Positions 7,760 to 27,874 of a stretch of 34,178 nt of DNA are shown piece by piece. The notes under the pieces were generated by a model. The model was not told the DNA's origin. It searched no databases and saw only the letters and a program-made list of their open reading frames with translations. The position numbers and the translations under genes are program-made. Every line of letters starts with the position of its first letter. Position 1 is the stretch's first letter. Source of the DNA: Moorena bouillonii PNG (lineage in GTDB: Bacteria; Cyanobacteriota; Cyanobacteriia; Cyanobacteriales; Coleofasciculaceae); NCBI RefSeq assembly GCF_001942495.1, contig NZ_MKZS01000001.1:2499277-2533454 (forward strand), written 5' to 3'.

Positions 7760-9232
7760 ATGAGTAAGTCAGACCCTAAGCAGAGTAATGTACAGGACGC
7801 TATTGACTATTATCGTAAAGTAATTCAACTTGATTCCAATCAACCTCCAGGACTGTACCAGAGATTGGGAAATCAATTACTTAGGACAAATCATGTACAG
7901 GAAGCTGAAGCAGTTTTCCAAGAACTCTCACAAAGGTACCCTGAAAAGCTGCAAGGATATGAAGGTTTAGCTCGTGTGGCACAACAAACTCAGCAGTGGG
8001 AGTTGGCACAACAAAGGTGGGAGAAAGTGCTGGAGTTGTCCCCGAACCATATCCGGGCTTTGGTTAGTAAGGGGAATACACTGATAGAGTTACGAAAATA
8101 TCAGGCAGCGGAGGCAGTTTTCGAGGAACTGTCACACCAGCATCCTGATCAGCCCCAAGGCTATGAAGGTTTGGCGCGTGTGGCACAACAAACTAAGCAG
8201 TGGGAGTTAGCCCTGGAGCGTTGGAATATCGCAATCAGTAAGACAAAGGCGAAGTCGAGCTATATCGGAAAATGCAGATTATTAGTTCGTTTTGTTGAGG
8301 ATGAAAAAGCATTTAATGTCATCGATACTCTTATTGCTGAAAAAGGAGATGATCTAGAAATATTACTAGCCAAAGCTGATTTACTCATGTCAGCCTTAAG
8401 ATTTGACGAGGCAGTTAAACTCCTTATAGGATTAAGGAATGACCATCCAGAAAATTTGAAAATTAAGCTCTTACTCTCTCAAGCTCTCATCGGAGCGAAA
8501 CACTTTGATGAAGCCAGTCGCCTAATCGAAGAACTGCCCAACTATCAGAATTTCTCTCAAGGAATCATTAAACTCCTAAAAACCTGGCAAAAAAACTACC
8601 AGAGTGGAATTAGCTTTGAGCAGCCAAAAATTTTTGGCATAGGGTTAAGTAAAACGGGAACAACTTCTCTTGATAAAGCGTTTATTATTCTCGGCTATGC
8701 TTCACTTCATTTTGAAAATCCTATCACTAAAAAAGTTATCGATTTAGAAGATATTTTGTATTATGATGCCTTCTCAGATGCCTCGATATGCTTCAGATTT
8801 GAAGAATTATTTTTTGCTTTTCCAAATGCTAAATTTATCTACACAGAACGAAATTTAAAAGATTGGATTAACTCCATATCTAATTTGTTTATTTACCGTG
8901 GCTTCAGTACCCCTACAGGAGTGAAAGCATGGCTTAATAAACGTGAATTTAGTATGATTGAAAAAGTTCGGTTTAATTTAATTCATCGTTATGCCTTTGA
9001 GAGTTTATATGCTAACCATTCGACTTGGGAGGAGGTATATACATCTTTTGAGAGACGAGTCAATAATTTTTTTCAAGACAAACCACCAGAAAAATTATTG
9101 AAACTAAATATATGCAGTGGTGAGGGCTGGGAAAAGCTCTGCAAATTTCTAGAGGTTCCAGTTCCTTCCCAACCATTCCCTCATCTGAATAAAGGTCCTG
9201 GCAACCAAAGTCATCTTTCCTTAGTTCTGTAA
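7760..9232 (+). CDS. TPR-sulfotransferase fusion
   Basis: A 490-residue protein. Residues 1-270 are TPRs, including two near-identical stretches (AEAVF.ELS..P, QGYEGLARVAQQT) that also occur at the start of the protein at 5004, so the two share a TPR ancestor. From about 288, IFGIGLSKTGTTSLDKA is a clear sulfotransferase phosphosulfate-binding loop of the family with GLSKTGTTSL, followed by FPNAKFIYTERNLKDWINS, which fits the strand that ends in the PAPS-contacting Arg. It would move sulfate from PAPS to a hydroxyl group; the acceptor is unknown. It sits 68 bp after the previous gene in the same direction and may share its transcript. Confidence 0.82.
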   Translation: MSKSDPKQSNVQDAIDYYRKVIQLDSNQPPGLYQRLGNQLLRTNHVQEAEAVFQELSQRYPEKLQGYEGLARVAQQTQQWELAQQRWEKVLELSPNHIRALVSKGNTLIELRKYQAAEAVFEELSHQHPDQPQGYEGLARVAQQTKQWELALERWNIAISKTKAKSSYIGKCRLLVRFVEDEKAFNVIDTLIAEKGDDLEILLAKADLLMSALRFDEAVKLLIGLRNDHPENLKIKLLLSQALIGAKHFDEASRLIEELPNYQNFSQGIIKLLKTWQKNYQSGISFEQPKIFGIGLSKTGTTSLDKAFIILGYASLHFENPITKKVIDLEDILYYDAFSDASICFRFEELFFAFPNAKFIYTERNLKDWINSISNLFIYRGFSTPTGVKAWLNKREFSMIEKVRFNLIHRYAFESLYANHSTWEEVYTSFERRVNNFFQDKPPEKLLKLNICSGEGWEKLCKFLEVPVPSQPFPHLNKGPGNQSHLSLVL

Positions 9233-12305: not shown

Positions 12306-12417
12306 TTTAGATAAATATTAACCCCTTATTAAAATATAAATTACAAAAATATTACTATTGTTAAAAACTACCTTAAAAGACTTTATATATAGACGTTTTT
12401 TATGGGATTATAATAAT

Positions 12418-13908
12418 ATGAATAAACCAGATAAAGCAATTGATAAGTCTCAAAAAGCTATTGATATTAATGGTGAGCAGCCAGGTTGGATATACCTAGC
12501 TTTAGGTTATGTACATTATAACAACAATCAATTAAATGATGCAATTTATAATTACAAAAAAATTATTGAAATCAACTCTAATCAACCCAGTTTTATCTAT
12601 AAAAGACTGGGTAATGCTTTAGAAAGTCAAGAAAGATTATCAGAAGCCATTTCAATTTACCAACAAGGAATCAGAACTAATCCAGATCATCCTGAGCTTT
12701 ATATTTGTTTAGGGGATAGTTACGCAAATTTAGAGCATGTCGAAAAAGCTATAACAACCTATTATAAAGCTATAAGCCTGCGATATAAAAATCCTCAACT
12801 CTCTGGTTTTTTAGACGTTGAAGCAATTTTATCATCTTATTCAAAAGCAATAGAATCAACGTGTATAGAGAATTTTTATTACCATATAGGTAAAGCATTG
12901 AGTTATAGGCAAAATCTAAATCAAGCTGCCAAATTTTATAGGAAGGCTATTCAGATTAATCCGGAAATGTCGGCGGTTTACCAAAACTTAGGTGGTGTTG
13001 CTGCACAGCAAGGTAATTGTGAAGAGGCGATCGCCTTTTACATTAAGGCTATTAAGTCTGATCCAGGGAATGAGGAGTTCCATAATGAACTGTGGTGGCA
13101 CTTATTATCTATCCCTATCGCACTACAAAAATTGGAAAAAATCGATAACCTTGCTACAAACATAGTGCAAGTAGCAAATGAGACCAAAACCATGAACCAG
13201 TCTAATATAGCGCCTTTAGAATCTGATCATGGTGATTCTCTCAAAAATAGCCCACTCTTCTCAAACTTAATGGCTAATTATGAAAGAACTATCCAGTTGG
13301 CAACTCGCTCAAGTGAGACTATTTCAGCTAAAGACATGGTAGTGGTTCTTGCTAAAAAAAATAAAGCGATACATTTAAGGCTTTGGCAGCAATTTAAATT
13401 TATAAATTCTCTACTTAGGGAGCATGATATCAATTATTGGGCTATTGGTGGCACCCTAATTGGTGCTATTCGACATCAAGGTTTCATCCCTTGGGATAAC
13501 GATATTGATATTGAGATGAAAGAATCAGATCTAAATCGACTTTTCTCTTTAGAAGATCTACTCAATCAACATGGATTTTATTTGAAAAAAATTTCTAAAA
13601 GTTATTATCAAATTGCCGACAATTTTGACCTTTTTATATATGAACAAAGAAAATTGCCATCTCAAGGTGGCGAGCAACTATTTCCAGATGATCATGAAAT
13701 ATTCCCTTTGCAAAAATTGAAATTCTGTGACTTTGAGATTTATGCTCCCCATAAAGCAGAGGAATATCTGAAAAGGGCTTACGGAAATGATTGTCTGCAA
13801 AGATGCCGAATTTGGAATACTCATTTAAACAATTATTTTAAACCTGGCCATGATCCAGAAAGGTATGTCTTGAGCATTGATGATGTTAAGAATATATTTA
13901 AAATATGA
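12418..13908 (+). CDS. TPR-LicD family phosphotransferase
   Basis: A 496-residue protein from this ATG; a TTG at 12358 would add 20 residues but has no better ribosome site. Residues 1-240 are six or so TPRs. After a linker, WAIGGTLIGAIRHQGFIPWD followed by NDIDIEM is the signature of the LicD nucleotidyltransferase-like fold, in which the DxD pair binds metal. FIPWDNDIDI and the later RAYGNDC segment fit the family well. LicD proteins move phosphocholine, or other phosphodiester-linked groups, onto surface glycans. The donor here is unknown. It adds another TPR-enzyme fusion to the locus. Confidence 0.82.
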   Translation: MNKPDKAIDKSQKAIDINGEQPGWIYLALGYVHYNNNQLNDAIYNYKKIIEINSNQPSFIYKRLGNALESQERLSEAISIYQQGIRTNPDHPELYICLGDSYANLEHVEKAITTYYKAISLRYKNPQLSGFLDVEAILSSYSKAIESTCIENFYYHIGKALSYRQNLNQAAKFYRKAIQINPEMSAVYQNLGGVAAQQGNCEEAIAFYIKAIKSDPGNEEFHNELWWHLLSIPIALQKLEKIDNLATNIVQVANETKTMNQSNIAPLESDHGDSLKNSPLFSNLMANYERTIQLATRSSETISAKDMVVVLAKKNKAIHLRLWQQFKFINSLLREHDINYWAIGGTLIGAIRHQGFIPWDNDIDIEMKESDLNRLFSLEDLLNQHGFYLKKISKSYYQIADNFDLFIYEQRKLPSQGGEQLFPDDHEIFPLQKLKFCDFEIYAPHKAEEYLKRAYGNDCLQRCRIWNTHLNNYFKPGHDPERYVLSIDDVKNIFKI

Positions 13909-14241: not shown

Positions 14242-15003
14242 ATGCTAAGCAACGCTTTTTATTTCATTCATAAGATGGCGATTAATATAGGATTTATACC
14301 ATCAGAGTGGTTCTGTTTCTCTGAATATGACCCACGGAAGTTCTATGTATTCGCGGATCGAAGGCTAGTTTTTATAGAAGTTCCCAAAGTGGCCAGTTCC
14401 TCCATTTTGTACGCAATTGGCAAGGCTTATCAAGTCGAGTTCCAGCATTTCATACATAATGATCCGTTTTGGTATATTGAACGAGACAGGTTAAACCCGC
14501 AACAGCAAGAGTTTTACAAATTTGCCTTTGTGCGAAATCCTTTTGATAGATTAGTCTCTTGTTATAAGAATAAACTAATTCAGGTGCGCCACCAGACTAA
14601 GTGCAATCCTATTAGATATTTATTCGAGGGGTATATTCCTTTGGATGCTACTTTTGATGAATTTGTCAAAATCATCACCAAAATTCCTGACTATCTTGCT
14701 GAGAAACATTTTAAATCTCAGTACGCCATTTTGTCCCATGGGGGAAAGTTATTGCCTGATTGGATAGGGCGTTTTGAAACCTTAGCCGATTCCTGGGCAG
14801 AAATCGCTCAGAAATATGCTTTTGAACAGGACTTACCAAAATTAACATCAACTGAGCACCTCAAGAATACACCACCAGATTACCGAGCATACTACACAAA
14901 AGAATTGGCCGAGATGGTTTCCAGACGGTATAGAAAAGATCTGGTGTTATTTGGATACACCAAGGCTTACCAAGAACTCTTGGACTTTTTAGACAACAAG
15001 TAA
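14242..15003 (+). CDS. Carbohydrate sulfotransferase (sulfotransferase family 2 type)
   Basis: A 253-residue protein with VFIEVPKVASSSI near residues 43-55, the phosphosulfate-binding loop of the Golgi-type carbohydrate sulfotransferase family (PF03567-like), and FAFVRNPFDRLVSCYKNK near 95-112, the 3'-phosphate-binding segment. The later GRFETLADSW fits the family too. It would move sulfate from PAPS to a sugar hydroxyl. GGGAG stands 10 bp before the ATG. It is cytoplasmic by sequence, with no signal peptide or membrane anchor. This is the third sulfotransferase domain in the window and the only one without TPRs. Confidence 0.88.
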   Translation: MLSNAFYFIHKMAINIGFIPSEWFCFSEYDPRKFYVFADRRLVFIEVPKVASSSILYAIGKAYQVEFQHFIHNDPFWYIERDRLNPQQQEFYKFAFVRNPFDRLVSCYKNKLIQVRHQTKCNPIRYLFEGYIPLDATFDEFVKIITKIPDYLAEKHFKSQYAILSHGGKLLPDWIGRFETLADSWAEIAQKYAFEQDLPKLTSTEHLKNTPPDYRAYYTKELAEMVSRRYRKDLVLFGYTKAYQELLDFLDNK

Positions 15004-15020
15004 CAGATAAATCACTAGAG

Positions 15021-15861
15021 ATGGAAGAAATCACTTACCTCATTGCCAACTATAACAACGGTAAGTATATCACAGATTGCCTCAACTCCCTCCACCAACA
15101 AAGCTCTCCTAATTGGCGTGCTATCATCGTTGATGATAAAAGCACGGATAATTCGATACAGATAATAAATTCGCAACTTACTGAAAAAATTAAATTCTTA
15201 AAAAACGAGCAAAATATTGGTTATACACCCACGCTCATCCGCTTAATTGAACAGGCTACCACCGATATCGTGGGCATTTTAGATCCCGATGATGCACTGT
15301 ACCCAGAGGCAACAGAACTCGTTTTGCAAGCTTATTGTGAGTATCCTGAGGCGGGTTTTGTCTACACCAACCACGATTATTACAATGAAGAGTTAACAGC
15401 CAAAATCGGGTCATATCTTTCATCTGCCATCCCATCAGGCCGCACGAGTTTGATGCATGGAGTGGGTGCCATGAGGACCTTTCGACGCTCGCTCGGCATA
15501 TGCCAAAACTACAGGACTTGATCCAAGCATCTTGTATGCCGAAGATCGGGATTTAGTCTACAAAATGGAGGAGGTGACACCCTTTGTTTTTGTTGATCTA
15601 GCACTATATAAATATCGTTATGTGCCAAATTCACAAAGCCATAACCCACAAAAACGCAGACTCGGAGACAAAAATCATCGTCGTGCGTATCGTAACGCCC
15701 TAGCTCGCCGCCAAATTACTGGGCGGCGTAAAATTGGCCATTTGCTGTGGCTATACAGCCACCAGTTGTTACGTGGACAATTCCCAGGGAGACTCAAAGG
15801 GATTGTCAGTTGCTGCTTGCCCTATATAAACCGAATTGCATTCTGTCTAGCAGCGAGGTAA
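15021..15861 (+). pseudogene. Family 2 glycosyltransferase broken by a 4-bp duplication
   Basis: The N-terminal part is a GT2 domain: YLIANYNNGKYI, IIVDDKSTDNS and ILDPDDAL (the DxD metal site). The frame is lost at 15487-15494, where GCTC is present twice (GCTCGCTCGG). Removing one copy restores FRRSAYAKTTGLDPS and joins YAEDRDLVYKMEE onward to the stop at 15861, giving a 278-residue protein. As written, the protein ends at residue 166, after the donor-binding half. The downstream half is well preserved, so the change is recent, reversible or an assembly error. Confidence 0.85.
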
Positions 15862-15962: not shown

Positions 15963-16110
15963 GTGTATAAAAAAATGAGTTTTATCGCTTTGGAAAACCC
16001 TTATGGCGAGGCGCATTGGCACCAACCACTCAAAGACAGAGGAAAAATCCAATTTATGACGGGTTTAAGGATTAGGGTCAAGCAAACTAGATTTGAAGGA
16101 GGAAGATCAG

Positions 16111-17065
16111 ATGACGTTAGTTCGCATTATTGCAAACTGGGATTGGCCCCATTGGAGATCGGCCACTCCAAATCATAGTGGCATCTGGGAAGGAATAAAG
16201 TTTACCTTAGAACCTGTCGAAGAGTGCGATTATGTCATCGTCTTAAATGGAGCTAGTAAAACCACCACCATCACCTGCCCACCAGAACATATCTGGTCGA
16301 TGCTTCTTGAACCACCCACTGAATTTAGAAAGCCTTGGCATGTCAATCCGTCTTACTCTTTTCGCATGTTCACCACCGATGTGGACCTAACAGGCTCACA
16401 GTATATCCATAGCCAACCCGCTTTTACTTGGCATATCAATCAAGATTATGATTTTCTGGCTTCTTTTAAAGCACCTGAGAAAACCCAGCAACTATCTTGG
16501 ATTACCAGTGGACAAAGAGTATTGAAAGGGCATCGTGTCCGGATGGATTTTTTAGAGCAAATTCAAGGAAAATTGGATTTCGATCTGTGGGGACGGGACT
16601 TTAATCCGATAGATGATAAATGGGATGGTTTGGTTTCTTATCGCTATTCTTTAGCCATTGAAAACTATAGCAACCCTTTGTACTGGAGTGAAAAGCTAGC
16701 CGATTGCTATTTAGCATGGTGTATGCCCATTTATTATGGCTGCACGGGGATTACCGATTATTTCCCCCCCCGAGAGCTTAATCCAAATCGACATTAACCA
16801 GCCAGATGCTGCGGTGGAGAAAATTAAGGAGGCTATAGCCAGCAACGCTTGGCAGCAGAATCTGGACGCCATTGCATACGCACGGGAACTCATCCTCAAG
16901 CGATACCAGTTCTTCCCTTTTATGGTGTGCCAGATTCGTCACTTTCAAGCCACCTATGGCTCCTTTTTCCAAAAGCAGCCAGTAACGATTGCGCCCCGGA
17001 AAATCAAAGACAGGCTTTGGCCAAGAGGGGTGCGAAACAGCAAAAATTATAGCACTACGCATTAA
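16111..17065 (+). pseudogene. GT10 alpha-1,3-fucosyltransferase, frameshifted in a C8 tract
   Basis: The start is fixed by GAAGGAGG 7-8 bp before ATG 16111. The N-terminal part has IIANWDWPHW; the C-terminal catalytic part has YRYSLAIENYSNPLYWSEKL and PIYYGCTGITDYFP, the donor-binding hallmark of family 10 fucosyltransferases. At 16764-16771 a run of eight C puts the frame out, giving a stop at 16797. With seven C the frame continues as FPPESLIQIDIN to 17065, about 317 residues. GDP-fucose would be the donor. The rest of the gene is sound on both sides of the tract, so this may be an OFF state of a slippage switch, a fresh mutation, or a homopolymer error. Confidence 0.87.
16764..16771 (+). 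repeat. C8 homopolymer within the fucosyltransferase gene
   Basis: Eight consecutive C. Seven would keep the GT10 frame open. Poly-C tracts in fucosyltransferase genes of Helicobacter pylori are a known basis of phase variation; whether that happens here is inference. Confidence 0.9.
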
Positions 17066-17186
17066 GCTGTTTGACATTGATACAACCTGAAAAGCTTTTG
17101 TAGTAAACTTTTGCCTTTTGCCTCTTGCCAATGCCATTGCGCGTAGCGCTATAACTTGTTCATTTACCATGTCTGGGAGGAAAACC

Positions 17187-18116
17187 TTGATCTCCGTCAT
17201 TATTTGTACCTATAACCGAGCCGATTTGCTCACGGATGCTTTACACACCGTTTGCCAGCAGACCCTTGAGCACTCCGAATACGAAGTTATTGTGGTCGAT
17301 AACAACTCAACTGATCAGACGGCTACCGTAAGCCAGTCATTTGTGGCACGCTACCCCCATGTAAGTTACTGCTTCGAGCCGCAACAAGGGCTTTCTCATG
17401 CCCGTAATCGGGGCTGGCATGAGGCAAAGGGCGAGTATGTGGCTTATATTGATGATGATTGTAAGGTACCAGAAGGGTGGTTAGCGGTTGCTAAAGAGGT
17501 GATTGAGGGCGTATCACCCACAGTGTTTGGTGGACCTTATTTTGCTTTCTACAACACGCCCAAGCCAGCTTGGTACAAGGATATCTATGGCTCTAATTTT
17601 CCTTATGGCCAAGCACAGCACCTAGAAAGAGCAGAAGTCCTCTATGGCTCAAATCTTTTTTTGCGGCGCAACTTGTTTGAATGCGTTGGAGACTTCGATC
17701 CAAAATTAGGCATGAGCGGCCAAAAGATTGGTTATGGGGAAGAAACGGAGTTACTCCACCGTATCTGTGCCACCATGCCACAGGCCGTGATTTATTATGA
17801 GCCAAGGTTGTGGCTCTACCACTTGGTGCGCTCCGAAAAGATGAGCTGGCACTGGATTATTTCCGCCCGTTTTGCCCAAGGGCGTAACTGTTATTTCGTT
17901 TATCCGCCTTCCAACTCAAAGCTGATATTTATTATAGTACAAGTGGTCAAGTACAGTTTACTTTTACTCTTTAGCGTGCCCTTTGGCTTGCTGTTTCGGT
18001 CTCGAAAGCAATACCATTATTTCGATAATTTTTTATATGAAGTCATCTGTAATGATATTGAAACATTGGGTAAGCTTTATGAGCAATCTCGACAACTCAT
18101 TCTGTGCCAAGGGTGA
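17187..18116 (+). CDS. Family 2 glycosyltransferase
   Basis: A GT2 protein of about 309 residues from the TTG at 17187, chosen because GGGAGG ends six bases before it and it gives the typical start ISVIICTYNRADLL. An upstream ATG at 17169 has no ribosome site. Motifs are VVDNNSTDQT, GLSHARNRGW, YIDDDCKVP (metal-binding DxD) and GYGEETELLHRI. A hydrophobic stretch near residue 260 (KLIFIIVQVVKYSLLLLFSV) suggests a membrane anchor. It resembles enzymes of surface polysaccharide assembly. Donor and acceptor cannot be told from the sequence. Confidence 0.85.
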   Translation: MISVIICTYNRADLLTDALHTVCQQTLEHSEYEVIVVDNNSTDQTATVSQSFVARYPHVSYCFEPQQGLSHARNRGWHEAKGEYVAYIDDDCKVPEGWLAVAKEVIEGVSPTVFGGPYFAFYNTPKPAWYKDIYGSNFPYGQAQHLERAEVLYGSNLFLRRNLFECVGDFDPKLGMSGQKIGYGEETELLHRICATMPQAVIYYEPRLWLYHLVRSEKMSWHWIISARFAQGRNCYFVYPPSNSKLIFIIVQVVKYSLLLLFSVPFGLLFRSRKQYHYFDNFLYEVICNDIETLGKLYEQSRQLILCQG

Positions 18117-18120
18117 AGCG

Positions 18121-18159
18121 GTGTAAGCATTCATCTCATGTCCGGTTGAATACTTACAC
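18121..18159. repeat. Minimal inverted repeat (GTGTAAGCATTCA...TGAATACTTACAC)
   Basis: Thirteen-base arms with one mismatch around a 13-base loop. The arms are the same sequence as the ends of the element at 9611-9857, so this is a very short member of that family or its footprint. It lies just after the stop codon of the GT2 gene and could also form a transcript-end hairpin. Confidence 0.6.
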
Positions 18160-18537
18160 TCTAGCCGAATCGAAGGCAGAAGGCAGCTATGCTGAAGGCA
18201 GAAGTAAAGGAGTAAGGTTTAATCGGAGATGGTTTTTTATCACTAATTATCCGAACATGATATTAGTATCTGTACTCTCATTTAATGTGGATGGGATAGG
18301 CAATCACGGCTCAACTTATCCAGAAAGCTAGGATGGCATTGTTTGCCCCAAGTTGGTATGGCATTATCAACCTACAACGAAATGAACATCCTCGCTGCAA
18401 GCAGCGGAGTATCACTTCACGATTGCTCACACCCTAAGCGGTTTGCTATTGTTCCACAGTACCCTGCGAGGGTTGTTGTTCACAGACACAGCAAGCTGCG
18501 GGGAATCAGACCCAAAGAGCTTGAAGAAGGACTTCAA
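18160..18537. other. Intergenic region with hairpins, possible IS200/IS605-type remnant
   Basis: No gene is supported. An open frame from 18343 runs into the GT6 gene, but its first 65 residues look like translated non-coding DNA. CGCTGC-AA-GCAGCG at 18393-18406 is a perfect hairpin, and CAGCAAGCTGCGGGGAAT near 18491 resembles the end sequences left by IS200/IS605-type elements. That resemblance is from memory only. Confidence 0.45.
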
Positions 18538-19323
18538 ATGGAAAATCGATATAAAGTTGGATTATTAATAATTTGCACCGGAAAATACCATCGCTTTATG
18601 GAGGGATTATATGAAAGTGCTTCTAAGTTTTTTATGAATAATCATGATGTGACCTACTTTTTTTTTAGTGATCAAGATGATATGAAGCAATATCAAAATA
18701 TGAAAATTATAAAAATCCCACATCTACCTTGGCCACTGATAGCCCTAATGCGCTATCACTTTTTTGATCAGTACCGAGCAGTGTTGAGCGACATGGATTT
18801 TCTCTTTTGCTGTGATGTAGATATGCGTTTCGTTTCCCTGTGTGGCGACGAGATTCTGCCCAACACGTCATCGGGCTTGGTAGGAGTAGATCATCCCGGC
18901 TATTGTTTGATGCCGCGCCTGAAATCAAAATTTGATCGTCTATTAGAAAATCATCTATTAAAAAAAATTGGCATAACTCCTCGAATTACAAACAAACGCC
19001 TACGGGGCACCTATGAAACGAACCCTATCTCTACTGCTTATATAGCTCCCGATCAGGGCGAGGTTTATTACGCTGGTGCATTCAATGGTGGACGCACGGA
19101 TGCATTTTTGACCATGTGCGATCATATCAAACAGAATGTAAATCAGGATCTTAGCAAGAATTATATTGCCGTTTGGCACGACGAAAGTCATCTTAATCGC
19201 TATTTTATCAATCATCCACCGAAAACTTTGTCACCGAGCTACTGTTACCCGGAATCATGGAATTTGCCATTCCCAAAAATTCTTTTGGCTTTGGATAAAA
19301 ATCATCACGAAATTCGTCGATAA
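18538..19323 (+). CDS. GT6 glycosyltransferase, ABO / alpha-1,3-galactosyltransferase family
   Basis: A 261-residue protein. The ATG at 18538 matches the usual family start (KVGLLIICTGKY). Diagnostic motifs are LSDMDFLFCCDVDMRF with the D93-V94-D95 metal site, YYAGAFNGGR, WHDESHLNRYF and the C-terminal PSYCYPE. These are the core of family 6 (PF03414), which moves Gal or GalNAc in alpha-1,3 linkage with retention, classically onto a fucosylated Gal. Many bacterial members have NxN at the metal site; this one has DxD like vertebrate enzymes. The protein lacks the stem and membrane anchor of animal enzymes. It precedes a GT11 fucosyltransferase by 59 bp. The specificity cannot be read from sequence. 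Confidence 0.92.
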   Translation: MENRYKVGLLIICTGKYHRFMEGLYESASKFFMNNHDVTYFFFSDQDDMKQYQNMKIIKIPHLPWPLIALMRYHFFDQYRAVLSDMDFLFCCDVDMRFVSLCGDEILPNTSSGLVGVDHPGYCLMPRLKSKFDRLLENHLLKKIGITPRITNKRLRGTYETNPISTAYIAPDQGEVYYAGAFNGGRTDAFLTMCDHIKQNVNQDLSKNYIAVWHDESHLNRYFINHPPKTLSPSYCYPESWNLPFPKILLALDKNHHEIRR

Positions 19324-19382
19324 GTACCTACTCCATCTGTTGAGAGAAAGTAGTGGCATAGGTTCCAATGAAAGGTAAGTGC

Positions 19383-20273
19383 ATGGGCGTTGTTATCGTG
19401 AGATTGAGTGGTGGATTGGGCAATCAGATGTTTCAATATGCAATCGGACGTAAAATAGCCCTCGTTAATAATGTTCAATTGAAGCTAGATATTTCATCGT
19501 TTGAACATGATCTACTTCGCATGTACAACTTGTATTGGTTTCAGATTAAACAAGCTTTTGCTAGCTCGGAAGAATTGGCAGCACTCAAGTCATTAAGACA
19601 AACAAAAGAGTCGAATCCAGTTATTATTCGGTTAAGACAAGTAATGAAGCGGTTTGCAAGCTGGAAGGTTTTCAGGGAAGAGCAGTTGATGCCATTTAAC
19701 CCAAATATCATGACTAGCTCTGACAAGATTTATTTAGACGGCTACTGGCAAAGCGAGAAGTATTTTTTGGATATTGAAGATGTTATTCGGCGTGAGTATA
19801 CATGTAAATATGAGCCAAATGCTCAGAGTAAAAAAATAGCCGAAATGATAGCAAATAGTCACTCCGTTAGCATTCATGTTAGAAGAGGTGATTATGTCTC
19901 GAATCCAGCGAATAACCAATTACACGGTACCTGTAGTTTGACTTATTACCAGCAATGCGTCGAGCAGATTGCTAAAGAAGTGCTTCATCCGCATTTCTTT
20001 GTTTTCTCTGATCACCCTATTTGGGTAAAAGAAAATCTATGTTTGGACTACCCTATGACATTTGTCACCCATAATAACCATCTTAGAGATTATGAAGATT
20101 TGTGGCTGATGTCTCATTGCCAGCATCACATTATTGCCAATAGCAGCTTTAGCTGGTGGGCAGCTTGGCTCAATCCAAATTTGAATAAGAAAGTGTTTGC
20201 CCCGAAGAAGTGGTTTAACGACCCTCGTTTAGATACACGAGATTTACTCCCTGACAATTGGATCAAAGTATGA
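19383..20273 (+). CDS. GT11 alpha-1,2-fucosyltransferase
   Basis: A 296-residue protein from ATG 19383 (an ATG 15 bp upstream is possible). Motifs are VRLSGGLGNQMFQYAIGRK at the N-terminus, SIHVRRGDYV in the middle (HxRRGDY, GDP-fucose binding) and ANSSFSWWAAWLN near the end, which together define family 11 (PF01531). It would add alpha-1,2 fucose to a terminal Gal, making an H-type structure that a GT6 enzyme could extend. The stop overlaps the start of the next gene (ATGA at 20270), so the two are translationally coupled. Confidence 0.93.
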   Translation: MGVVIVRLSGGLGNQMFQYAIGRKIALVNNVQLKLDISSFEHDLLRMYNLYWFQIKQAFASSEELAALKSLRQTKESNPVIIRLRQVMKRFASWKVFREEQLMPFNPNIMTSSDKIYLDGYWQSEKYFLDIEDVIRREYTCKYEPNAQSKKIAEMIANSHSVSIHVRRGDYVSNPANNQLHGTCSLTYYQQCVEQIAKEVLHPHFFVFSDHPIWVKENLCLDYPMTFVTHNNHLRDYEDLWLMSHCQHHIIANSSFSWWAAWLNPNLNKKVFAPKKWFNDPRLDTRDLLPDNWIKV

Positions 20274-21331
20274 GTCAAATAACCGAGACGCCACTGGTTA
20301 GCGTCCTAATGCCAGTTTACAACGGTACCTTATATTTACGTGAGGCCGTTGATAGCATATTGAGTCAAACCCTCAGCAATTTTGAATTTATCATTGTTGA
20401 TGATGGCTCAACAGACGAAACTCCTAGGATTTTGGATAATTACAATGATCCACGCATTGTTAGAGTTACCAATCAAAGCAATCTGGGAATCGTCGATTCG
20501 CTAAATCGTGGGTTGAAGATGGTGCGGGGGAAATATGTGGCTCGGATGGATGCAGACGATATTAGCTTGCCAGAGCGCTTAAGGCAACAGGTCCAATTTT
20601 TGGAAGAACATCCAGAGATAGGAATTTTGGGGACTGCCATTACCATCTTGTTTGACGAAACAAATAGGTCCGAGAGTACAGACTGCTATTACCCTAGCCA
20701 GCCCGGTATTGTTCGTTGGAACCTCTTTTTTAAGAATTCTCAAACCGTTGCCCATCCAACAATGATGGTTCGGCGAATAATTTACGAACAATTAAAAGGG
20801 TATGACACTACTTTTGTCCATGCGGAGGATTATGATTTCTTGTTGAGGGCTTGTTTTCACACAGAGATCACGAATTTGCCAAATATTCTGTTGCATTATC
20901 GAAGACATGGTCGAAATGTTAGCTATATCCATCGTCAAGCACAAGCCAAAAACGCGATCCTTGCCCAGCGGAAAACACTTTGCGCTTTCTTATCTCAAGA
21001 ACTCTCCTTTGAAACCACTCATGCTTTGCATGTTCATCAATGGAAGGCAATCAACCTGGCAGAAACCCTTAACGTGGCTAAGTTACTCTCCCAACTTTAT
21101 CGAACTTGTATAAGTTCATTCAGGTTGACTCAAAGTGAAAGAGAGAAAATCCAGCATGATGTACTGCAAGGGCTAAAGAAGTTGGCATTAACACGGAAGG
21201 TAGGAGAAAAGCAAATGCTTTCAATAAAACTATGGTGGATATGGCTCATGATCTACTTTTATAAAGATAACGGTCAGGGTAATTGCATCTCAATCGAGCT
21301 CCAAAATGCTGTAACACTTCCTAAAACTTGA
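20270..21331 (+). CDS. Family 2 glycosyltransferase
   Basis: A 353-residue protein. The start at 20270 is chosen because it overlaps the stop of the GT11 gene as ATGA. The GT2 domain fills residues 1-230: PLVSVLMPVYNGTLYLREA, IIVDDGSTDET, RMDADDISLPERL (DxDD metal site), and a later AEDYDFLLRA. The C-terminal 110 residues are helical and not recognised. Enzymes of this type often act early or in the middle of surface polysaccharide assembly. Coupling to the fucosyltransferase suggests work on the same glycan. Confidence 0.9.
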   Translation: MSQITETPLVSVLMPVYNGTLYLREAVDSILSQTLSNFEFIIVDDGSTDETPRILDNYNDPRIVRVTNQSNLGIVDSLNRGLKMVRGKYVARMDADDISLPERLRQQVQFLEEHPEIGILGTAITILFDETNRSESTDCYYPSQPGIVRWNLFFKNSQTVAHPTMMVRRIIYEQLKGYDTTFVHAEDYDFLLRACFHTEITNLPNILLHYRRHGRNVSYIHRQAQAKNAILAQRKTLCAFLSQELSFETTHALHVHQWKAINLAETLNVAKLLSQLYRTCISSFRLTQSEREKIQHDVLQGLKKLALTRKVGEKQMLSIKLWWIWLMIYFYKDNGQGNCISIELQNAVTLPKT

Positions 21332-21591
21332 TCATCTTCTGAGCTCACAAAAGCACACCAATTGATTGGTCTTGCACCGGTTCGGCGTTTATGATCTAGG
21401 GCTTTACTGAGAAGAGGGGCGTCCATTACCTCCTCCAACTCACCTGCTCAGTCCCGATCAACTACGACTAACACCTGAGTCACCCTCCCCACACTCCCCT
21501 TAATTATGGGTATTGAACCAGACTTGATATTACACGCACCTGGCTTGTCGCCTTCCATCATTATGGAAACAGTTGTCATAGGATCATCAAG

Positions 21592-22539
21592 ATGTCGTTA
21601 AAAGTGTGTTTGCTGGTGATTTATAATCACAAATTTACTAAAAATGTTCCCAAAATTGAGAAGCTGTATGGCCACAGATTTGAACATATTTACCATCTGA
21701 TGCCTTTTTATCAGGGAAACGCGAACAATATTATCCCTGTATTTGAATCATCGGCTTGTTTTCAGGGCTATATTGCTCAAGCCCAATCTCGTCTTCCCGC
21801 GAGTGATTATTATGTATTCATTGGGGATGATGTACTCCTACATCCCGACTTAAACGCTCAAAATTTGATTGAAACATTGGGGTTAAATCCAGATTCAGGA
21901 TATATCAAGTTCCTGATACCTCTGGAAAAAGTCTCTTTTGCTTGGTCTCACAAGCTAGACGTGATACGCAAATACATAGCCAATTCTCCGTGGGTGACCT
22001 ATCGAGATGAAATTCCATCCTTGGCGATGGCTATTGCTATCCTGCAAGCCAAGCAAATAGAAATAACTGGTCGCTTATCTGTGGGAAATTTGCTAGCCCA
22101 TAGCTTCTTTCCTATGATTCGACGTGAATACCGAGAGTACTACTATGAACCTTGGCGATTTCTGGAGGCTTTACTATTTTTATTGAAAAATCGGTCAAAC
22201 CTTAAAATGCCATATCCGCTCCTCAATGGATATTCTGATTTGATTGTGGTTCCAGCCAGTGTCTTCGAGAAGTTTTATCATTATTGCGGGGTCTTTGGGG
22301 CGATGGATTTGTTTGTGGAGGTGGCGATTCCCACCGCGTTGGCCTTGAGTTGTCCGAAGGTCGTGACCGAAGCGGATACGGCTTGGCATGGTTATGAGAT
22401 GTGGAATGTACAAGAAAAGGCTGCCTTTACAGATAAAGCCCAATCTTACAACTACGAGATTTCTAGGTTGTTCGAGTCATATTTCACACCAGATTTGCTG
22501 TATGTCCATCCCGTTAAACTATCCCAGTGGAAGGTATAG
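21592..22539 (+). CDS. Unknown protein with glycosyltransferase-like DD motif
   Basis: A 315-residue protein that I cannot place in a named family. It starts KVCLLVIYNHKF, has DYYVFIGDDVLLHPDLN near residues 78-95 (a hydrophobic strand ending in an acidic pair, as in GT-A enzymes), and ends with an EADTAWHGYEMW segment, which could supply an acidic base and His. There is no signal peptide and no membrane segment. It lies 9 bp before the STELLO-like gene and after three fucosyl/GT genes, so a glycosyltransferase role is likely but inferred from context and the DD motif only. Confidence 0.6.
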   Translation: MSLKVCLLVIYNHKFTKNVPKIEKLYGHRFEHIYHLMPFYQGNANNIIPVFESSACFQGYIAQAQSRLPASDYYVFIGDDVLLHPDLNAQNLIETLGLNPDSGYIKFLIPLEKVSFAWSHKLDVIRKYIANSPWVTYRDEIPSLAMAIAILQAKQIEITGRLSVGNLLAHSFFPMIRREYREYYYEPWRFLEALLFLLKNRSNLKMPYPLLNGYSDLIVVPASVFEKFYHYCGVFGAMDLFVEVAIPTALALSCPKVVTEADTAWHGYEMWNVQEKAAFTDKAQSYNYEISRLFESYFTPDLLYVHPVKLSQWKV

Positions 22540-22547
22540 AAGTTCTT

Positions 22548-23567
22548 ATGACGAAAAAGTATATTATTGTTACCACAATTAATGATAAAACAGAAGGTAT
22601 TAGTCATTTTGAACAATTTCAAGATTGGCATATTGTCTTAGTAGGTGACTGCAAGACACCTGCCATCGACTCATCAGCAAATCTGACTTTTCTATCGGTT
22701 AGCGAACAAGAAAAGTTAGGATATGAGTTGGTTAAGCACTGCCCATATAATCACTACGCTCGTAAGAATATCGGTTATTTGTATGGGATTCAAGCAGGGG
22801 CAGAGGTGATTTATGACACCGATGATGACAACTGGCCTACCCAGAGTTGGGGAATCTACGATTTTTATGGCGACAGGCAATATGTGACCGAACAAAAATT
22901 TGTAAACATCTATCGTTATTTCACAGAAAAGCTAATTTGGCCGCGAGGGTACCCTTTAGATGAAATCCAGCATCAGACCGAGCATCAGCTTCTTAATACC
23001 GAGCCTGTCTCGATTGGGGTTTGGCAGGGGTTGGTCGATTTAGACCCTGATGTGGATGCTATTTACCGCTTGATCATCGGTGAAAACATTACCTTTGCCA
23101 AGAATAGCTCTGTGTTTTTGGGAAAGGAGCAATATTGTCCCTTCAATTCACAAAACACATTTTGGCATAGAGATGCCTTTCCCTACCTTTATCTGCCTTC
23201 AACTACAAGCTTCCGGTTTACCGATATATTGCGTGGATATATTGCCCAAAAACTAATGTGGAACCAAGGTATATATCTCGGATTTCAGCCTGCTGACGTT
23301 TACCAAAAGCGCAATCCACACGACCTGATGACAGATTTCAAGCAAGAAGTAGAATGTTACCTTGGGGTCAAAGCAATTGTGGCTTTGCTGGACACAGTGG
23401 AATTGGGAGAAAACCCCCTTGAAAATTTGCAAGTAGTCTACACATCTTTGGCAGAGGCTGGATTTGTTAGTGCGCTTGAGGTCTCGATTTGCCAAGCGTG
23501 GTTAAATGATTTGACCCGCATTCTTGAAAACAAGCACAACTATTACATCAAAGAGGGGGCTGCTTGA
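22548..23567 (+). CDS. STELLO / DUF288-like glycosyltransferase
   Basis: A 339-residue protein from ATG 22548 (a GTG at 22527 is less likely). KYIIVTTINDKTEGI, then WHIVLVGDCKTP, LGYELVKHCPYNHYARKNIGY and GAEVIYDTDDDN match the STELLO family (DUF288, PF03385), known from eukaryotes and scattered bacteria. The DTDDDN run near residue 90 is the expected metal and sugar-nucleotide site. In plants STELLO proteins act on cellulose synthesis in the Golgi; what bacterial copies do is poorly known. Its stop overlaps a TTG start of the truncated gene that follows. Confidence 0.82.
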   Translation: MTKKYIIVTTINDKTEGISHFEQFQDWHIVLVGDCKTPAIDSSANLTFLSVSEQEKLGYELVKHCPYNHYARKNIGYLYGIQAGAEVIYDTDDDNWPTQSWGIYDFYGDRQYVTEQKFVNIYRYFTEKLIWPRGYPLDEIQHQTEHQLLNTEPVSIGVWQGLVDLDPDVDAIYRLIIGENITFAKNSSVFLGKEQYCPFNSQNTFWHRDAFPYLYLPSTTSFRFTDILRGYIAQKLMWNQGIYLGFQPADVYQKRNPHDLMTDFKQEVECYLGVKAIVALLDTVELGENPLENLQVVYTSLAEAGFVSALEVSICQAWLNDLTRILENKHNYYIKEGAA

Positions 23568-23704
23568 AACCGATCAAAATTCTTCTAGTACAGTGCGAAA
23601 TCGACAATTGGCGAGTGGCACGGCCATGGTCATATAATGTCCATGTTGGTTGGGAAGTGGGATTCCATGCCAACAACGTCCAGTTCTTGACAATCTTGAC
23701 CTAA
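23564..23704 (+). pseudogene. Truncated gene cut by the IS element
   Basis: TTG at 23564 overlaps the previous stop and follows GAGGGGG. It opens 46 residues starting KPIKILLVQCEIDNWR and ending FLTILT at the left end of the IS200/IS605 element, where TAA arises from element sequence. The N-terminus looks like that of a glycosyltransferase of the GT-B kind, but is too short to be sure. No continuation is seen on the far side of the element, so a deletion followed or preceded insertion. Confidence 0.6.
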
Positions 23705-23721
23705 GACCCTGAGGGCGCAAG

Positions 23722-23743
23722 CCCCTGGATTCCATCCATGGGG
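23722..23743. repeat. IS left-end hairpin with bulged T
   Basis: CCCCTGGA and TCCATGGGG pair around loop TTCCA, leaving T at 23739 unpaired. It lies 21 bases inside the TTGAC target and is the probable TnpA-binding site. Confidence 0.75.
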
Positions 23744-23767
23744 TTAGCCCGAACAGGAATTTATTCC

Positions 23768-24166
23768 CTAAACCTCTTTCTGGTTTTGAACGTACCGTTT
23801 GATTGTCTCTAATGGAGCGCCTCCAACTGTGGACAAGAAGTAGGAATTAGTCCACAAAGTAGGCAGTCGGCTTTTTAGGTGAGGAAACTGTTCCCTGAGG
23901 TACCTACTGGTTGCTCCTTTGAATCGTTTTACCACTCTGTGAATACCAAACTGTGGATCACATTCACAGAGTAAATGAACATGATCAGGCATTATCTCTA
24001 ATTCGATGATTTCAACTTGGATCTCTTCTGCTATTTGGTGGAGGAGTTCTTTTAATCTTGCTTCCACCTCTTCCACTAATACTGGCCTGCGGTACTTGGG
24101 ACACCACACGACATGGTATTTGCATGAGTAGACAATGTTTTTGTTGTATTTATACTTATTTTTCAT
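23768..24166 (-). CDS. tnpA: IS200/IS605 Y1 transposase TnpA
   Basis: A 132-residue single-strand transposase of the HUH class. MPDHVHLL supplies the metal-binding pair H62 and H64, and IKRYVQNQ supplies the catalytic Tyr125. Length is normal for the family (130-150). Conserved KYHVVWCPKYRR near the N-terminus and LWTNSYFLSTVGG near the C-terminus are also typical. It faces away from tnpB, with about 77 bp between them. It would cut and rejoin single-stranded DNA at the two hairpin ends. Confidence 0.95.
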   Translation of the reverse strand: MKNKYKYNKNIVYSCKYHVVWCPKYRRPVLVEEVEARLKELLHQIAEEIQVEIIELEIMPDHVHLLCECDPQFGIHRVVKRFKGATSRYLREQFPHLKSRLPTLWTNSYFLSTVGGAPLETIKRYVQNQKEV

Positions 24167-24243
24167 TTCGTCCTGGACATTATCTAGTTGGCGTGTATAT
24201 ACTATAAAAGTACACGAAAGATAACGTCAAGGAGGTAATTTTA

Positions 24244-25446
24244 GTGCTAGCAATGGAGTTCAAAGCCGTCCTCACTAAAAACCAACAGAAAGCTGTAGAC
24301 GAAGCTATTCGTACATCTAAATTTGTGCGAAATAAAGTCTTGCGCTACTGGATGGACAATAAGGGAATTGGCAAGAAAGAACTCTATCGCTATAACACTC
24401 TATTACGAGATGAGTTTAAATTTGTAAAAGACCTCAACAGTCATGCTTGTCAGGTTTCCGTTGAAAACGTAGAAAGAGCCATTAAGCGCTTCTTTGACAA
24501 CTGCAAGAAGAAAGCCCCAGGAAAGAAGGGTTACCCAAAATTCAAGAAGCATTGTCGTTCTGTTGAGTACAAGCAATCTGGTTGGAAGTTATCACCAGAC
24601 AAGAAGTCTATCAAGTTTACAGACAAAAAGGGTATTGGTAAAGTCAAGCTCAAAGGAACCTGGGACTTGTGGTGGTTTGATCAAAAACTGATTAAACGGG
24701 TTCGGATTGTCAAAAAAGCCGACGGCTACTACGTCCAGTTTTGTGTCAAAGTAAATAGGACTGAAGAACTGGATAAAACTGGATGCGCTGTTGGGTTAGA
24801 TGTAGGTTTAAAAGAATTTTACACCGATTCTGATGGCTACTCTGAGCCTAATCCTAGGTTCTATAGAAAAAGTGAAAAACGTGTAAAATTTTGTCAACGT
24901 AGGCTTTCCCGAAAAAAGAAAGGCTCAGCCAACCGACGAAAAGCCAGAAACAGACTAGGTAGGGCACACCTCAAAATAAGTAGGCAACGTAGAGAACATG
25001 CCTTGAGACTGGCGCGTTGCGTAATCCAATCTAACGATTTGGTCGCTTACGAAGATTTGAAGGTCAAAAACTTAGTTAAAAATCATTGCCTTGCTAAGTC
25101 TATTAATGATGCTGGTTGGCGTCAATTTCGGGGATGGTTAGAGCATTTTGGCCAAAGGTTCAACAAGATTACTGTTGCAGTAAATCCTGCCTATACCAGC
25201 CAAAACTGCTCCGAGTGCGGTGAGGTAGTCAAAAAGTCTCTATCAACTAGAACTCATGCCTGTAAATGTGGTTGCAACCTAGATCGTGATCACAATGCCG
25301 CCAAAAACATACTTAACAGAGCCTTGAGTACGGTGGGGCACACCGAAACTTTTAAAAACGCTTGGGGAGATCTGTCCTCTACTAAACCTGATTCCGGTCT
25401 GGTTAAGCAAGACAGTTCGTTGAACCAAGAATCCCCTGCCTTCTAG
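24244..25446 (+). CDS. tnpB: TnpB RNA-guided nuclease
   Basis: A 400-residue protein. GTG 24244 is chosen because AAGGAGG lies eight bases before it; ATG 24253 is the alternative. The RuvC site is complete: D186 in GLDVGLKEF, E270 in VAYEDLKVKNL and the DRDHNAAKNI motif (D347/D349). A zinc finger has C322/C325 and C340/C342. A basic helix-turn-helix region fills the N-terminal third. TnpB proteins use an RNA from the element's right end to cut DNA next to the TAM, which keeps the element at its site. The stop codon lies in the loop of the right-end hairpin. Confidence 0.95.
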   Translation: MLAMEFKAVLTKNQQKAVDEAIRTSKFVRNKVLRYWMDNKGIGKKELYRYNTLLRDEFKFVKDLNSHACQVSVENVERAIKRFFDNCKKKAPGKKGYPKFKKHCRSVEYKQSGWKLSPDKKSIKFTDKKGIGKVKLKGTWDLWWFDQKLIKRVRIVKKADGYYVQFCVKVNRTEELDKTGCAVGLDVGLKEFYTDSDGYSEPNPRFYRKSEKRVKFCQRRLSRKKKGSANRRKARNRLGRAHLKISRQRREHALRLARCVIQSNDLVAYEDLKVKNLVKNHCLAKSINDAGWRQFRGWLEHFGQRFNKITVAVNPAYTSQNCSECGEVVKKSLSTRTHACKCGCNLDRDHNAAKNILNRALSTVGHTETFKNAWGDLSSTKPDSGLVKQDSSLNQESPAF

Positions 25447-25462
25447 GCATGGGGAGTGTCAA
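25330..25462 (+). ncRNA. Probable TnpB omega RNA
   Basis: In this family the guide RNA comes from the 3' end of tnpB through the right end of the element, and its guide is the flanking DNA. This interval overlaps the last 39 codons or so of tnpB and includes the right-end hairpin. The guide would begin near 25463. The 5' limit is a guess. Confidence 0.4.
25433..25454. repeat. IS right-end hairpin with bulged T
   Basis: CCCCTGCC and GGCATGGGG pair around loop TTCTA, leaving T at 25450 unpaired, the same shape as the left-end hairpin. Confidence 0.75.
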
Positions 25463-25468
25463 TCAATT

Positions 25469-25504
25469 GTCAAGGCATCGCAAACTACCAAAAAGCCATT
25501 GAGC
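25469..25504 (+). pseudogene. Fragment of a TPR gene
   Basis: The bases between the IS and the next inverted repeat read QGIANYQKAIEL, the second helix of a TPR as found many times in this window. It is cut on the left by the IS and on the right by GTAAGCATTCAGC. Very short, so only a remnant call is possible. Confidence 0.45.
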
Positions 25505-25505
25505 T

Positions 25506-25618
25506 GTAAGCATTCAGCCGTCAGCCGTCAGCCGTGAGCACCTCAAGTAGCGTGGCCAACGGCCAAGGCTCACGCTGCTTGAGGTGCTTTCCATAACTCA
25601 GATTAAACTTTTGCTTAC
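25506..25618. repeat. Palindromic repeat element with GTAAGCATTCAGC end
   Basis: It starts GTAAGCATTCAGC like the element at 9611 and may end at TGCTTAC (25612-25618). Inside, AGCACCTCAAGTAGCGTG and CACGCTGCTTGAGGTGCT form an 18-bp inverted repeat with one mismatch. The CACCTCAAG half-site recurs near 9726, 9800 and 10621. Confidence 0.65.
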
Positions 25619-25624
25619 TTGTTT

Positions 25625-25674
25625 TCTTGATGCAATAGCGAGTGGGGTTTCCCCCACTCGCTATTGCATCAAGA
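25625..25674. repeat. 23-bp hairpin repeat
   Basis: Arms TCTTGATGCAATAG...GTGGGG and the exact complement around a four-base loop. The outer part (CTTGATGCA) and loop (GGGGTTTCCCC) match the hairpin at 10366-10417, while the middle differs with compensating changes, as expected if the fold itself is kept. Confidence 0.88.
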
Positions 25675-25730
25675 CAGGTAAAAGAGTTTTAGGTTTTTTT
25701 AATAAAAGGTCGTTTAAATGCGGGACAGCT

Positions 25731-26161
25731 TAGTCCTCTTGAAAAGACTTGATTTACTCCCTGTGGGAGTTTAATCCCTGGTGGATTATTGAGATTAGTG
25801 CAAGATTTCAATAAAGGATTAATGCGATCGCGTTTTTCAGTGTGCTACCCTCAGGGATGGATATATTTTTTCTCTCAGGGATGGATATATTTTACTGAAA
25901 ATTTATCAAAAAACACTAGTTTTACTCAGTTTATTTATAAGTTCTTTATAAGAACTTTCCAGTTTTTTCATAAACTAATAGTGATGTATACTGCAGCCAA
26001 AAAAAAGCGCGATTAGGCTTGAGTCAGTCTCAAGCTCTACGAAGACAGGGAAAAATGTCCTGACGGATGGGTCCTTAACCTGCATCTACCAAGAGCTTCC
26101 AGAGGTCTTTAAAGCTCTCCAGCAGTATTTTAACTAACGGCAGCTTGCCATTAAGGATATA
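25731..26161. repeat. Duplicated ~430-bp unit, copy 2 (uninterrupted)
   Basis: Matches 9529-9610 plus 9866-10213. It contains the same tandem CAGGGATGGATATATTTT pair (about 25853-25897) and the GCTTGAG/CTCAAGC hairpin, and adds a clean ACTCCC-TGT-GGGAGT hairpin near 25756. It ends 78 bp before the gene at 26240, whereas copy 1 ends about 490 bp before the ACP gene. The 75-residue open frame over it is not conserved in copy 1. Confidence 0.85.
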
Positions 26162-26239
26162 AGCTTGATAGACAGAGACTTATCTGCCTGAATGCTAAAG
26201 ATAAAAATTACTCAACACTAAAATCAACTGAATTTCAAC

Positions 26240-27175: not shown

Positions 27176-27192
27176 CTGATAATTAACTTATT

Positions 27193-27370
27193 TATAGCGG
27201 TTTGCAATTGGGTGAGGTACAAATTTTTTGGTTTTAGGGAACAGGGAACAGGGAACAGGGAACAGGGAACAGGGAAGATAGAATATAGAAGAGGGCACAG
27301 GGAACAGGGAACAGGGAACAGGGAACAGGGAAAAAATTATGTGTACCTCATTAGGCTAGACACCGCTATA
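27193..27370. mobile_element. Inverted-repeat element with heptamer core, copy 2
   Basis: TATAGCGGTTTGC...GAGGTACA and TGTACCTCA...CACCGCTATA are imperfect terminal inverted repeats of about 28 bp. Between them are two runs of GGGAACA heptamers (27238-27276 and 27297-27332). No gene; the open frame through it only translates the heptamers. Confidence 0.68.
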
Positions 27371-27405
27371 TTTATTGTTGGCTTTATAATTGGTTGATTT
27401 AGGGT

Positions 27406-27682: not shown

Positions 27683-27699
27683 ACGTAGCCATTGCAATA

Positions 27700-27846
27700 T
27701 ATAGCGGTTTTTATTATAATGAGGTACACATAATTTTTACCCTCCCTCTTAGCTCTTACGTCTTCTGAATTCACTGCTCCCTACTCCCTACTCCCTGCTC
27801 CCTACTCCCTAAAAATATGTACCTCACCTAATTTAAAACCGCTATA
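27700..27846. mobile_element. Inverted-repeat element with heptamer core, copy 3
   Basis: TATAGCGGTTTT...TGAGGTACA and TGTACCTCA...AAAACCGCTATA form the ends, with CCCTACT/CCCTGCT heptamers inside. It sits between the dead ACP and the GT4 gene. The heptamer strand is opposite to that in the copy at 27193, so the core can lie either way. Confidence 0.68.
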
Positions 27847-27874
27847 GCTATTCAAATTGACAGAGTAACTAACC

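Follow-up and report, generated by a model that had tools for sequence, protein, structure and literature searches.

Blood-group-like sugars in Escherichia coli O86 depend on two glycosyltransferases, the GT11 enzyme WbwK for H and the GT6 enzyme WbnI for the B antigen, and the available part of the same source discusses bacterial ABO-type enzymes as mimicry of animals or as genes acquired from them (PMC4202792). Here we describe a GT6 gene and a GT11 gene lying side by side in Moorena bouillonii PNG, within a stretch of 34,178 nucleotides referred to as the window (contig NZ_MKZS01000001.1, positions 2,499,277 to 2,533,454). By sequence, the two proteins are relatives of the enzymes that build the human H and A/B blood-group sugars. 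The host had been taken for a cyanobacterium from the DNA itself, and it is one, since PsaA/PsaB were found in its genome. Within its class GT6 is rare, occurring in 2 of 388 genomes; in one further genome, G360, neither a GT6 nor a GT11 was found.

The GT6 and GT11 genes of the window

The features discussed below all lie on the forward strand:

7760..9232, + strand, TPR and sulfotransferase protein (PF17784, E 2e-36)
12358..13908, + strand, TPR and LicD protein (PF04991, E 1.4e-23)
14242..15003, + strand, sulfotransferase (PF03567, E 9.3e-23)
16111..17065, + strand, remnant of a GT10 fucosyltransferase; frame open over 16111-16797, remainder in another frame to 17065
17169..18116, + strand, GT2 glycosyltransferase (PF00535, E 9e-32)
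18538..19323, + strand, GT6; ATG start at 18538, AAGGA directly upstream
18814..18822, + strand, DVD metal-type (DXD) motif of GT6, from the alignment
18901..19002, + strand, 34-residue insert of GT6 between HPG and RGTYE, from the alignment
19072..19080, + strand, AGA donor-site tripeptide of GT6, at the place of human 266-268, from the alignment
19174..19185, + strand, WHDE catalytic stretch of GT6, from the alignment
19368..20273, + strand, GT11 fucosyltransferase, 301 aa, intact (PF01531; ATG at 19368 or 19383)
19875..19892, + strand, HVRRGD motif of GT11, read directly in the sequence
20270..21331, + strand, GT2 glycosyltransferase overlapping the GT11 stop (PF00535, E 1.9e-36; junction read)

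Profile searches bore out both family assignments of the initial annotation. The GT6 protein matched PF03414 at 139.9 bits (cut-off 25, E 1e-40) and fell outside the named subfamily NF041524 of NCBIfam (229.5 bits, cut-off 250) while remaining inside GT6. It has PDB matches by sequence and by fold, with the GT-A fold of ABO-type enzymes and the catalytic WHDE stretch, in which HDE is present in all 118 aligned rows with letters there and W in 117 of the 118. Identity to characterised enzymes is 31-42% over aligned residues. The DXD type leads us to expect metal dependence, and the predicted activity is alpha-1,3 transfer of Gal or GalNAc; the AGA tripeptide shares its first residue with the AGG-type A enzymes and its last with the MGA-type B enzymes. 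The 34-residue insert was found in the window and in a second genome of the genus (G386) only, among 121 aligned rows (L048 has 25 residues there); its pLDDT is 64-70, and model confidence is high elsewhere in the protein.

The GT11 protein matched PF01531 over positions 2-295 of 298 (129.1 bits, cut-off 23.9, E 2.7e-37), and a PDB sequence search with it returned nothing of its family. Its HVRRGD is of the form HxRRxD, which we take to be the GDP-fucose motif, and alpha-1,2 linkage to galactose is predicted. The same-strand spacing between the genes is the 59 bp first given if GT11 starts at ATG 19383, and 44 bp if it starts at ATG 19368. At its other end, ATGA at 20270-20273 joins the GT11 stop to the start of the next GT2 gene.

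Recurrence of the pair and a possible pathway

The GT6-GT11 neighbourhood recurs in unrelated bacteria and in cyanophages. Across 92 non-redundant GT6 loci, GT11 density was 0.185 per kb within 1 kb of GT6 versus 0.009-0.031 per kb at 2-6 kb; GT10 served as a flat control (3, 4, 1, 2, 2 and 0 hits in successive 1-kb bins out to 6 kb, with the broken gene of the window, in two fragments, giving two of the four hits at 1-2 kb). The genome scan kept 80 of 121 confirmed loci; those that were short, duplicate or not GT6-sourced (L001-L013, L018, L019, L024, L025, L047, L128-L149 and L151) were left out of the 92-locus set, and six GT6 pieces of <180 residues (L035, L077 and L105, two apiece) were dropped beforehand. 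No GT11 lay within 2 kb of GT6 in 48 of the 92 loci, and among cellular DXD loci, to which that of the window belongs, the two genes are seldom paired (8 GT11 hits within 2 kb, n=39 loci). Many of the loci stop at contig ends. Of 16 fetched phage loci, 13 (10 from named cyanophages) have GT11 no more than 1.5 kb upstream of GT6; in cyanophages B23, Bellamy and S-8S55 it is directly upstream with a 4-base overlap, the families having been tested with Pfam for B23 and Bellamy. The pair in cyanobacteria or cyanophages is unnamed in the titles or abstract openings found, in a search that lay mostly outside the subscription literature.

Small GT6-bearing genomes of the phylum were also considered as Prochlorococcus-like, a reading that was rejected: the ones in family f31 are Gastranaerophilales, G269, G025 and G301 are without PsaA/PsaB, G301 and L126 carry the same GT6, and the aligned GT6s of the family are of the NXN type.

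In the GT6 tree, whose bootstrap had not settled, the window protein groups weakly among mostly viral GT6s, the 20-row set around it standing at 92/93 (not starred) and a 7-row set inside at 84/52. Ten phage GT6 rows with QGC, nine of them from Synechococcus phages and the tenth from a marine virus, form a clade of their own at a distance from the window protein, which argues against a simple origin from cyanophages. The placement of the window GT11 rests on 95/61, and this gene and the gene order look cellular. With weak support, the two proteins thus seem to have different kin, which would point to more than one assembly of the pair; such separate assembly, which may have occurred here, would favour one shared pathway in which fucose is placed on galactose and followed by alpha-1,3-Gal or GalNAc.

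On balance, and with modest confidence, we favour the view that GT11 and GT6 act one after the other in a single surface-glycan pathway. The first enzyme, GT11, would take L-fucose from GDP-fucose and place it on a terminal galactose, giving an H-like Fuc-alpha-1,2-Gal; GT6, as a metal-type (DXD) retaining enzyme, would then add Gal and/or GalNAc alpha-1,3 to that galactose, yielding a branched B- or A-like end on a core built by the flanking GT2 enzymes. We infer the linkage, the acceptor, the order of action, surface export and sulfation. The Pfam results, the PDB sequence and fold matches, the enrichment of GT11 with GT10 flat, the cyanophage pairs, the different kin of the two proteins and the precedent of E. 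coli O86 all support this pathway, as do candidate genes for the supply of GDP-fucose and UDP-galactose: gmd (565 bits, cut-off 415), an adjoining Fcl-like gene whose best model is GDP-L-fucose synthase (280.6 bits versus 500) and galE (458 bits, cut-off 262). It is weakened by the GT6 insert, which sits between HPG and TYE, and by the loci that have GT6 and no nearby GT11.

Do the two proteins act on other acceptors? Both could belong to the named families and yet GT6 might leave an end that is unbranched, alpha-Gal or Forssman-like, or GT11 might fucosylate another position, with no ABH structure resulting. GT6 members vary in acceptor according to the accessible text of PMC6351642, GT11 includes the alpha-1,3 enzyme HhFT2 (PMC4202792), which also weakens the pathway reading, and the low identity of the window GT6 to characterised enzymes and one locus (G257) with a GT6 and no GT11 found in its 20 kb point the same way. 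The concentration of GT11 beside GT6 across phyla and phages nevertheless argues against this, as does the listing of fucosylated galactose for WbnI and for BoGT6a as their acceptor (PMC4202792, in the part available), and we regard different acceptors as unlikely, if worth taking seriously.

Broken genes, mobile genes and a second genome

The surroundings of the pair are less well preserved. The GT10 frame is lost in a C run near 16764, and the match to PF00852 is for this reason partial (positions 2-93 of 182; 26 bits, barely above the cut-off of 23.9). The cluster recurs at ~98.7% identity in G386, where a nonsense change at the neighbouring codon cuts GT10 too; the gene had been read as frameshifted as written, which holds for the window and is not the whole of its condition. 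A complete, intact GT10 enzyme is thus absent from the window and from G386. The initial annotation had proposed a three-gene ABH/Lewis set and a search for it in related cyanobacteria: GT6 and GT11 are intact in G386, and the proposal that an H-type acceptor is then capped by GT6 is supported by family, fold, catalytic residues, recurrent neighbourhood and E. coli O86, but the Lewis third is rejected, since neither of the two genomes found with a GT10 has it whole, and GT10 is not enriched near GT6 elsewhere.

Other neighbours are varied. The GT2 at 17169..18116 is weakly HpsE-like (105 bits, cut-off 300), and sulfotransferase genes do lie nearby, as first noted; from this neighbourhood the glycan might be a sulfated form. 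No glycan polymerase or exporter was recognised within ~15 kb on each side (ORFs of at least 150 aa scanned: 8 of 10 on one side, 8 of 8 on the other), with one possible exception, a MatE-family protein ~14 kb downstream. A GT2 at 15021-15861 is broken in the window, and a TnpB gene lies at 24244-25446; among the matches listed, its plasmid matches were only of 60-67%, from other cyanobacteria, and a plasmid search with 23500-29100 gave no match.

Such surroundings raise the alternative that GT6 and GT11 are functionless open frames in a decaying island. Between the window and G386, GT6 differs by 2 silent and 6 changing substitutions and GT11 by 1 silent and 7 changing ones, few differences that could include sequencing errors; the changing-to-silent ratio is near neutral for both and for several neighbours, with no sign of strong purifying selection in either gene. 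These observations, together with the broken GT10 and GT2 genes, weaken the pathway reading, and the TnpB gene and the unusual insert are further points for decay; the uncommon pairing in cellular DXD loci and the distance of the Synechococcus-phage clade count against the pathway, and against the chemistry common to cyanobacteria and phages considered below, and in favour of decay. Both frames are nonetheless intact, free of indels, in two genomes, GT6 keeps its catalytic residues and has high model confidence outside the insert, an AAGGA stands before its start, and GT11 and GT2 overlap at their junction, so we consider decay quite improbable. Placement of the genes by contamination or misassembly, for which the rarity of GT6 in the class might speak, is rejected as extremely unlikely given the 8.26-Mb contig around the cluster and its recurrence in G386.

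Comparison with known systems

The successive action of GT11 and GT6 would have its closest parallel in E. coli O86, where GT11 makes the H acceptor that GT6 caps and where both families are found, as they are side by side in the window; the window host differs in being an oxygenic cyanobacterium. BoGT6a of Bacteroides ovatus (PDB 4ayj, 4cj8) has NAN and needs no metal, according to the text available (PMC3961637), whereas the window GT6 has DVD, AGA in place of AGG and the 34-residue insert. The GT6 of Parachlamydia acanthamoebae, likened here by description only, is a bacterial, metal-dependent DXD type (PMC3961637, as far as available). Cyanophage GT6s (P-SSM2, B23, S-CAM9, ACG-2014f and others) resemble the window enzyme in their DXD type and in having GT11 within 1.5 kb, but their order is GT11 then GT6, the reverse of that in the window, and the fetched Synechococcus-phage GT6s have QGC and form the separate, distant clade.

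An animal host hardly accounts for GT6 and GT11 standing together in a photosynthetic bacterium and in cyanophages, and the recurrence of the pair in other bacteria and in cyanobacterial viruses implies that sugar caps like those of blood groups may occur well away from any such host. We would speculate, while considering it rather doubtful, that ABH-type capping is a chemistry common to cyanobacteria and their phages, that this lineage put together its own pair by joining a GT6 of virus-like kind to a GT11 of cellular kind, and that the caps act in recognition or exclusion between phage and host, independently of animals. Do cyanobacteria and cyanophages form H-, A- or B-like ends, and if so, do such ends govern which phage infects which host? 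With respect to the human A and B synthases, the window GT6 shows ~34% identity over aligned residues, has no N-terminal extension and carries an AGA outside the tripeptides tested in the accessible portion of PMC6351642; DXD-type bacterial enzymes are now on hand for comparison with human ABO.

The GT6-GT11 pair in the window and its genus

The window lies within an 8.26-Mb contig of a genome (G000; 8.3 Mb, 98.9% complete) in which PsaA and PsaB were both found, and its host is therefore an oxygenic cyanobacterium. The features discussed here are as follows.

18538-19323: GT6 (ABO-type), PF03414, 139.9 bits, cut-off 25
19368-20273: GT11 (fucosyltransferase), PF01531, 129.1 bits, cut-off 23.9
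After GT11: GT2 gene whose start overlaps the GT11 stop via ATGA
714-4910: 1398-residue protein with condensation domain, AMP-binding C-terminal piece, carrier domain, thioesterase piece and many TPRs
29143-31221: shorter TPR protein with thioesterase piece

The initial annotation had proposed an ABH/Lewis-type set of GT10, GT6 and GT11. Its two-gene core was right and has more support than sequence alone offered. The Lewis part does not hold up here: GT10 matches at only 26 bits over half of the profile, a result of loss of the frame in a C run, and in G386, a same-genus genome, the gene stops at a nonsense codon adjoining the site of the window's lesion. The cluster was recovered in one of three other same-genus genomes searched (G386; 98.7% identity over 15964-23700), with GT6, GT11 and both GT2 genes intact and GT10 broken. 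A second, different GT10 copy in G386 has an open frame and DNA about 78% identical. An A- or B-like glycan end may reasonably be proposed as the putative product of the pair.

Among the matches listed for the other two genomes, G360 and G387, the TnpB region alone matched; searches of G360 with GT6 and GT11 gave no match, and the sole match of the GT11 search in G387 was 23% identical. This IS605-type TnpB element (23700-25463) lies inside the cluster, with other sequence at the same spot in G386. It is present in numerous copies across the genus, and the longer matches listed share 71-88% identity. At 15021-15861, a GT2 gene of the window is broken by a short duplication and has an open counterpart in G386.

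Silent and changing differences between the window and G386 number 2/6 for GT6 and 1/7 for GT11, small counts whose ratios are near the roughly 1 to 4 expected under neutrality, so that no strong purifying selection is seen on either gene since the lineages split. Several neighbours show a similar pattern (LicD-TPR 9/37, GT4 1/11), and constraint is seen in others, namely the pyruvyltransferase (14/9) and STELLO-like (8/6) genes.

Regarding sugar supply, G000 carries two gmd genes and galE over cut-off; the gene adjoining one gmd has GDP-L-fucose synthase as its best model, with a score under that model's cut-off. Sulfotransferases, LicD, STELLO-like and several TPR-fused proteins surround the pair. 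A scan of ORFs in the window and in flanks of about 15 kb revealed no recognisable polymerase or exporter dedicated to the glycan.

Recurrence of the pair around GT6

We sampled 121 GT6 stretches from 116 loci, of which 92 were left after 70%-identity clustering. GT11 matches per kb from GT6 fell from 0.185 (<1 kb) to 0.070 (1-2 kb) and 0.009-0.031 (2-6 kb). GT11 lay within 1 kb in 17/57 loci with the metal-type DXD motif, 15/32 of the NXN type and 0/3 others, and within 2 kb in 44/92. GT10 density, treated in the same way, was flat, which rules out a cluster merely rich in fucosyltransferases as the whole answer to the GT11 enrichment. Pairing is uneven: at distances up to 2 kb, the 19 loci of viruses or phages have 14 GT11 matches and the 39 cellular DXD loci have 8. 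Chlamydiota, Dependentiae/Babeliales and Verrucomicrobiota, which are often associated with protists as hosts, contribute many of the DXD loci (L049-L054, L056-L079, L085, L096, L098); L067 and L068 each hold two GT6 copies.

A draw across the phylum placed GT6 in 11/386 genomes and GT11 in 64/386, the two adjoining in three of the 11 (G000, G269, G025). G269 and G025 belong to Gastranaerophilales family f31, without photosystem I, and their GT2-GT11 fusion frame overlaps an NXN-type GT6 (L029 7477-9968, L032 9524-12078; Pfam run on the L032 fusion). The class draw found GT6 in 2/388 genomes (G000, G257), G386 not being among the matches listed. No GT11 was found in the G257 locus, L034; its GT6 has an odd donor site (QNC), and PsaA/PsaB are present in this genome.

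Phage pairs and the origin of the cyanobacterial genes

Searching with the window's GT6 protein recovered 71 phage records, among them 60 from Synechococcus phages and 4 from Prochlorococcus phages, with numerous near-copies (ACG-2014f). GT11 lies upstream of GT6 within 1.5 kb in 13 of the 16 phage loci fetched, with named cyanophages accounting for 10 and marine single-cell viruses for 3; in a 642-kb phage it is 4.3 kb away, and the fetched loci of a 635-kb phage and a faecal phage hold none. The 635-642-kb phage genomes (L157, L166) encode a DXD GT6. B23, Bellamy and S-8S55 (L153 4210-5720, L161 2198-3717, L163 2186-3717) share a 4-base overlap between the GT11 and GT6 frames. Pfam confirmed both families in B23, and GT11 also in Bellamy and P-SSM2. 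Near the ACG-2014f pair is a sulfotransferase gene annotated galactose-3-O-sulfotransferase (PF03567 match). Two environmental viral contigs, L014 and L015, carry a GT10-like gene shortly after GT6 (in L014, where Pfam was run, 24.2 bits, cut-off 23.9). The fetched Synechococcus-phage GT6s have the donor tripeptide QGC, absent from those tested in the available part of PMC6351642. GT6 was already known in two cyanophages (PMC3961637). In sequence records, depositors had labelled some phage genes family 6 or family 11. Our search of literature listings turned up no paper naming the GT6-GT11 pair in cyanobacteria or cyanophages.

In the GT6 tree, the window and G386 fall inside a 20-row set (support 92/93, not starred) in which viruses or phages make up 12 rows and the closest neighbours are the viral contigs L014 and L015; P-SSM2 is within this set, and ten QGC phage GT6s form a distant clade of their own. 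In the GT11 tree, the window sits in a mostly cellular set beside two Bacteroidota GT11s paired with NXN GT6 (95/61, weak). The window's order, GT6 then GT11, occurs in 18 of 24 same-strand matches within 2 kb in cells, which have 7 further matches on the opposite strand; all 14 viral GT11 matches have GT11 first. Taken together, tree placements and gene order suggest, without proving, that the window pair and the phage pair were assembled independently. The strongest evidence for GT6 and GT11 working together is that they have been paired repeatedly from different sources.

The cyanophage parallel to the window's pair deserves testing, and the window GT6 is an unusual member of its family. 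E. coli O86 likewise combines a bacterial GT11 with GT6, but the window's pair sits in an unexpected host.
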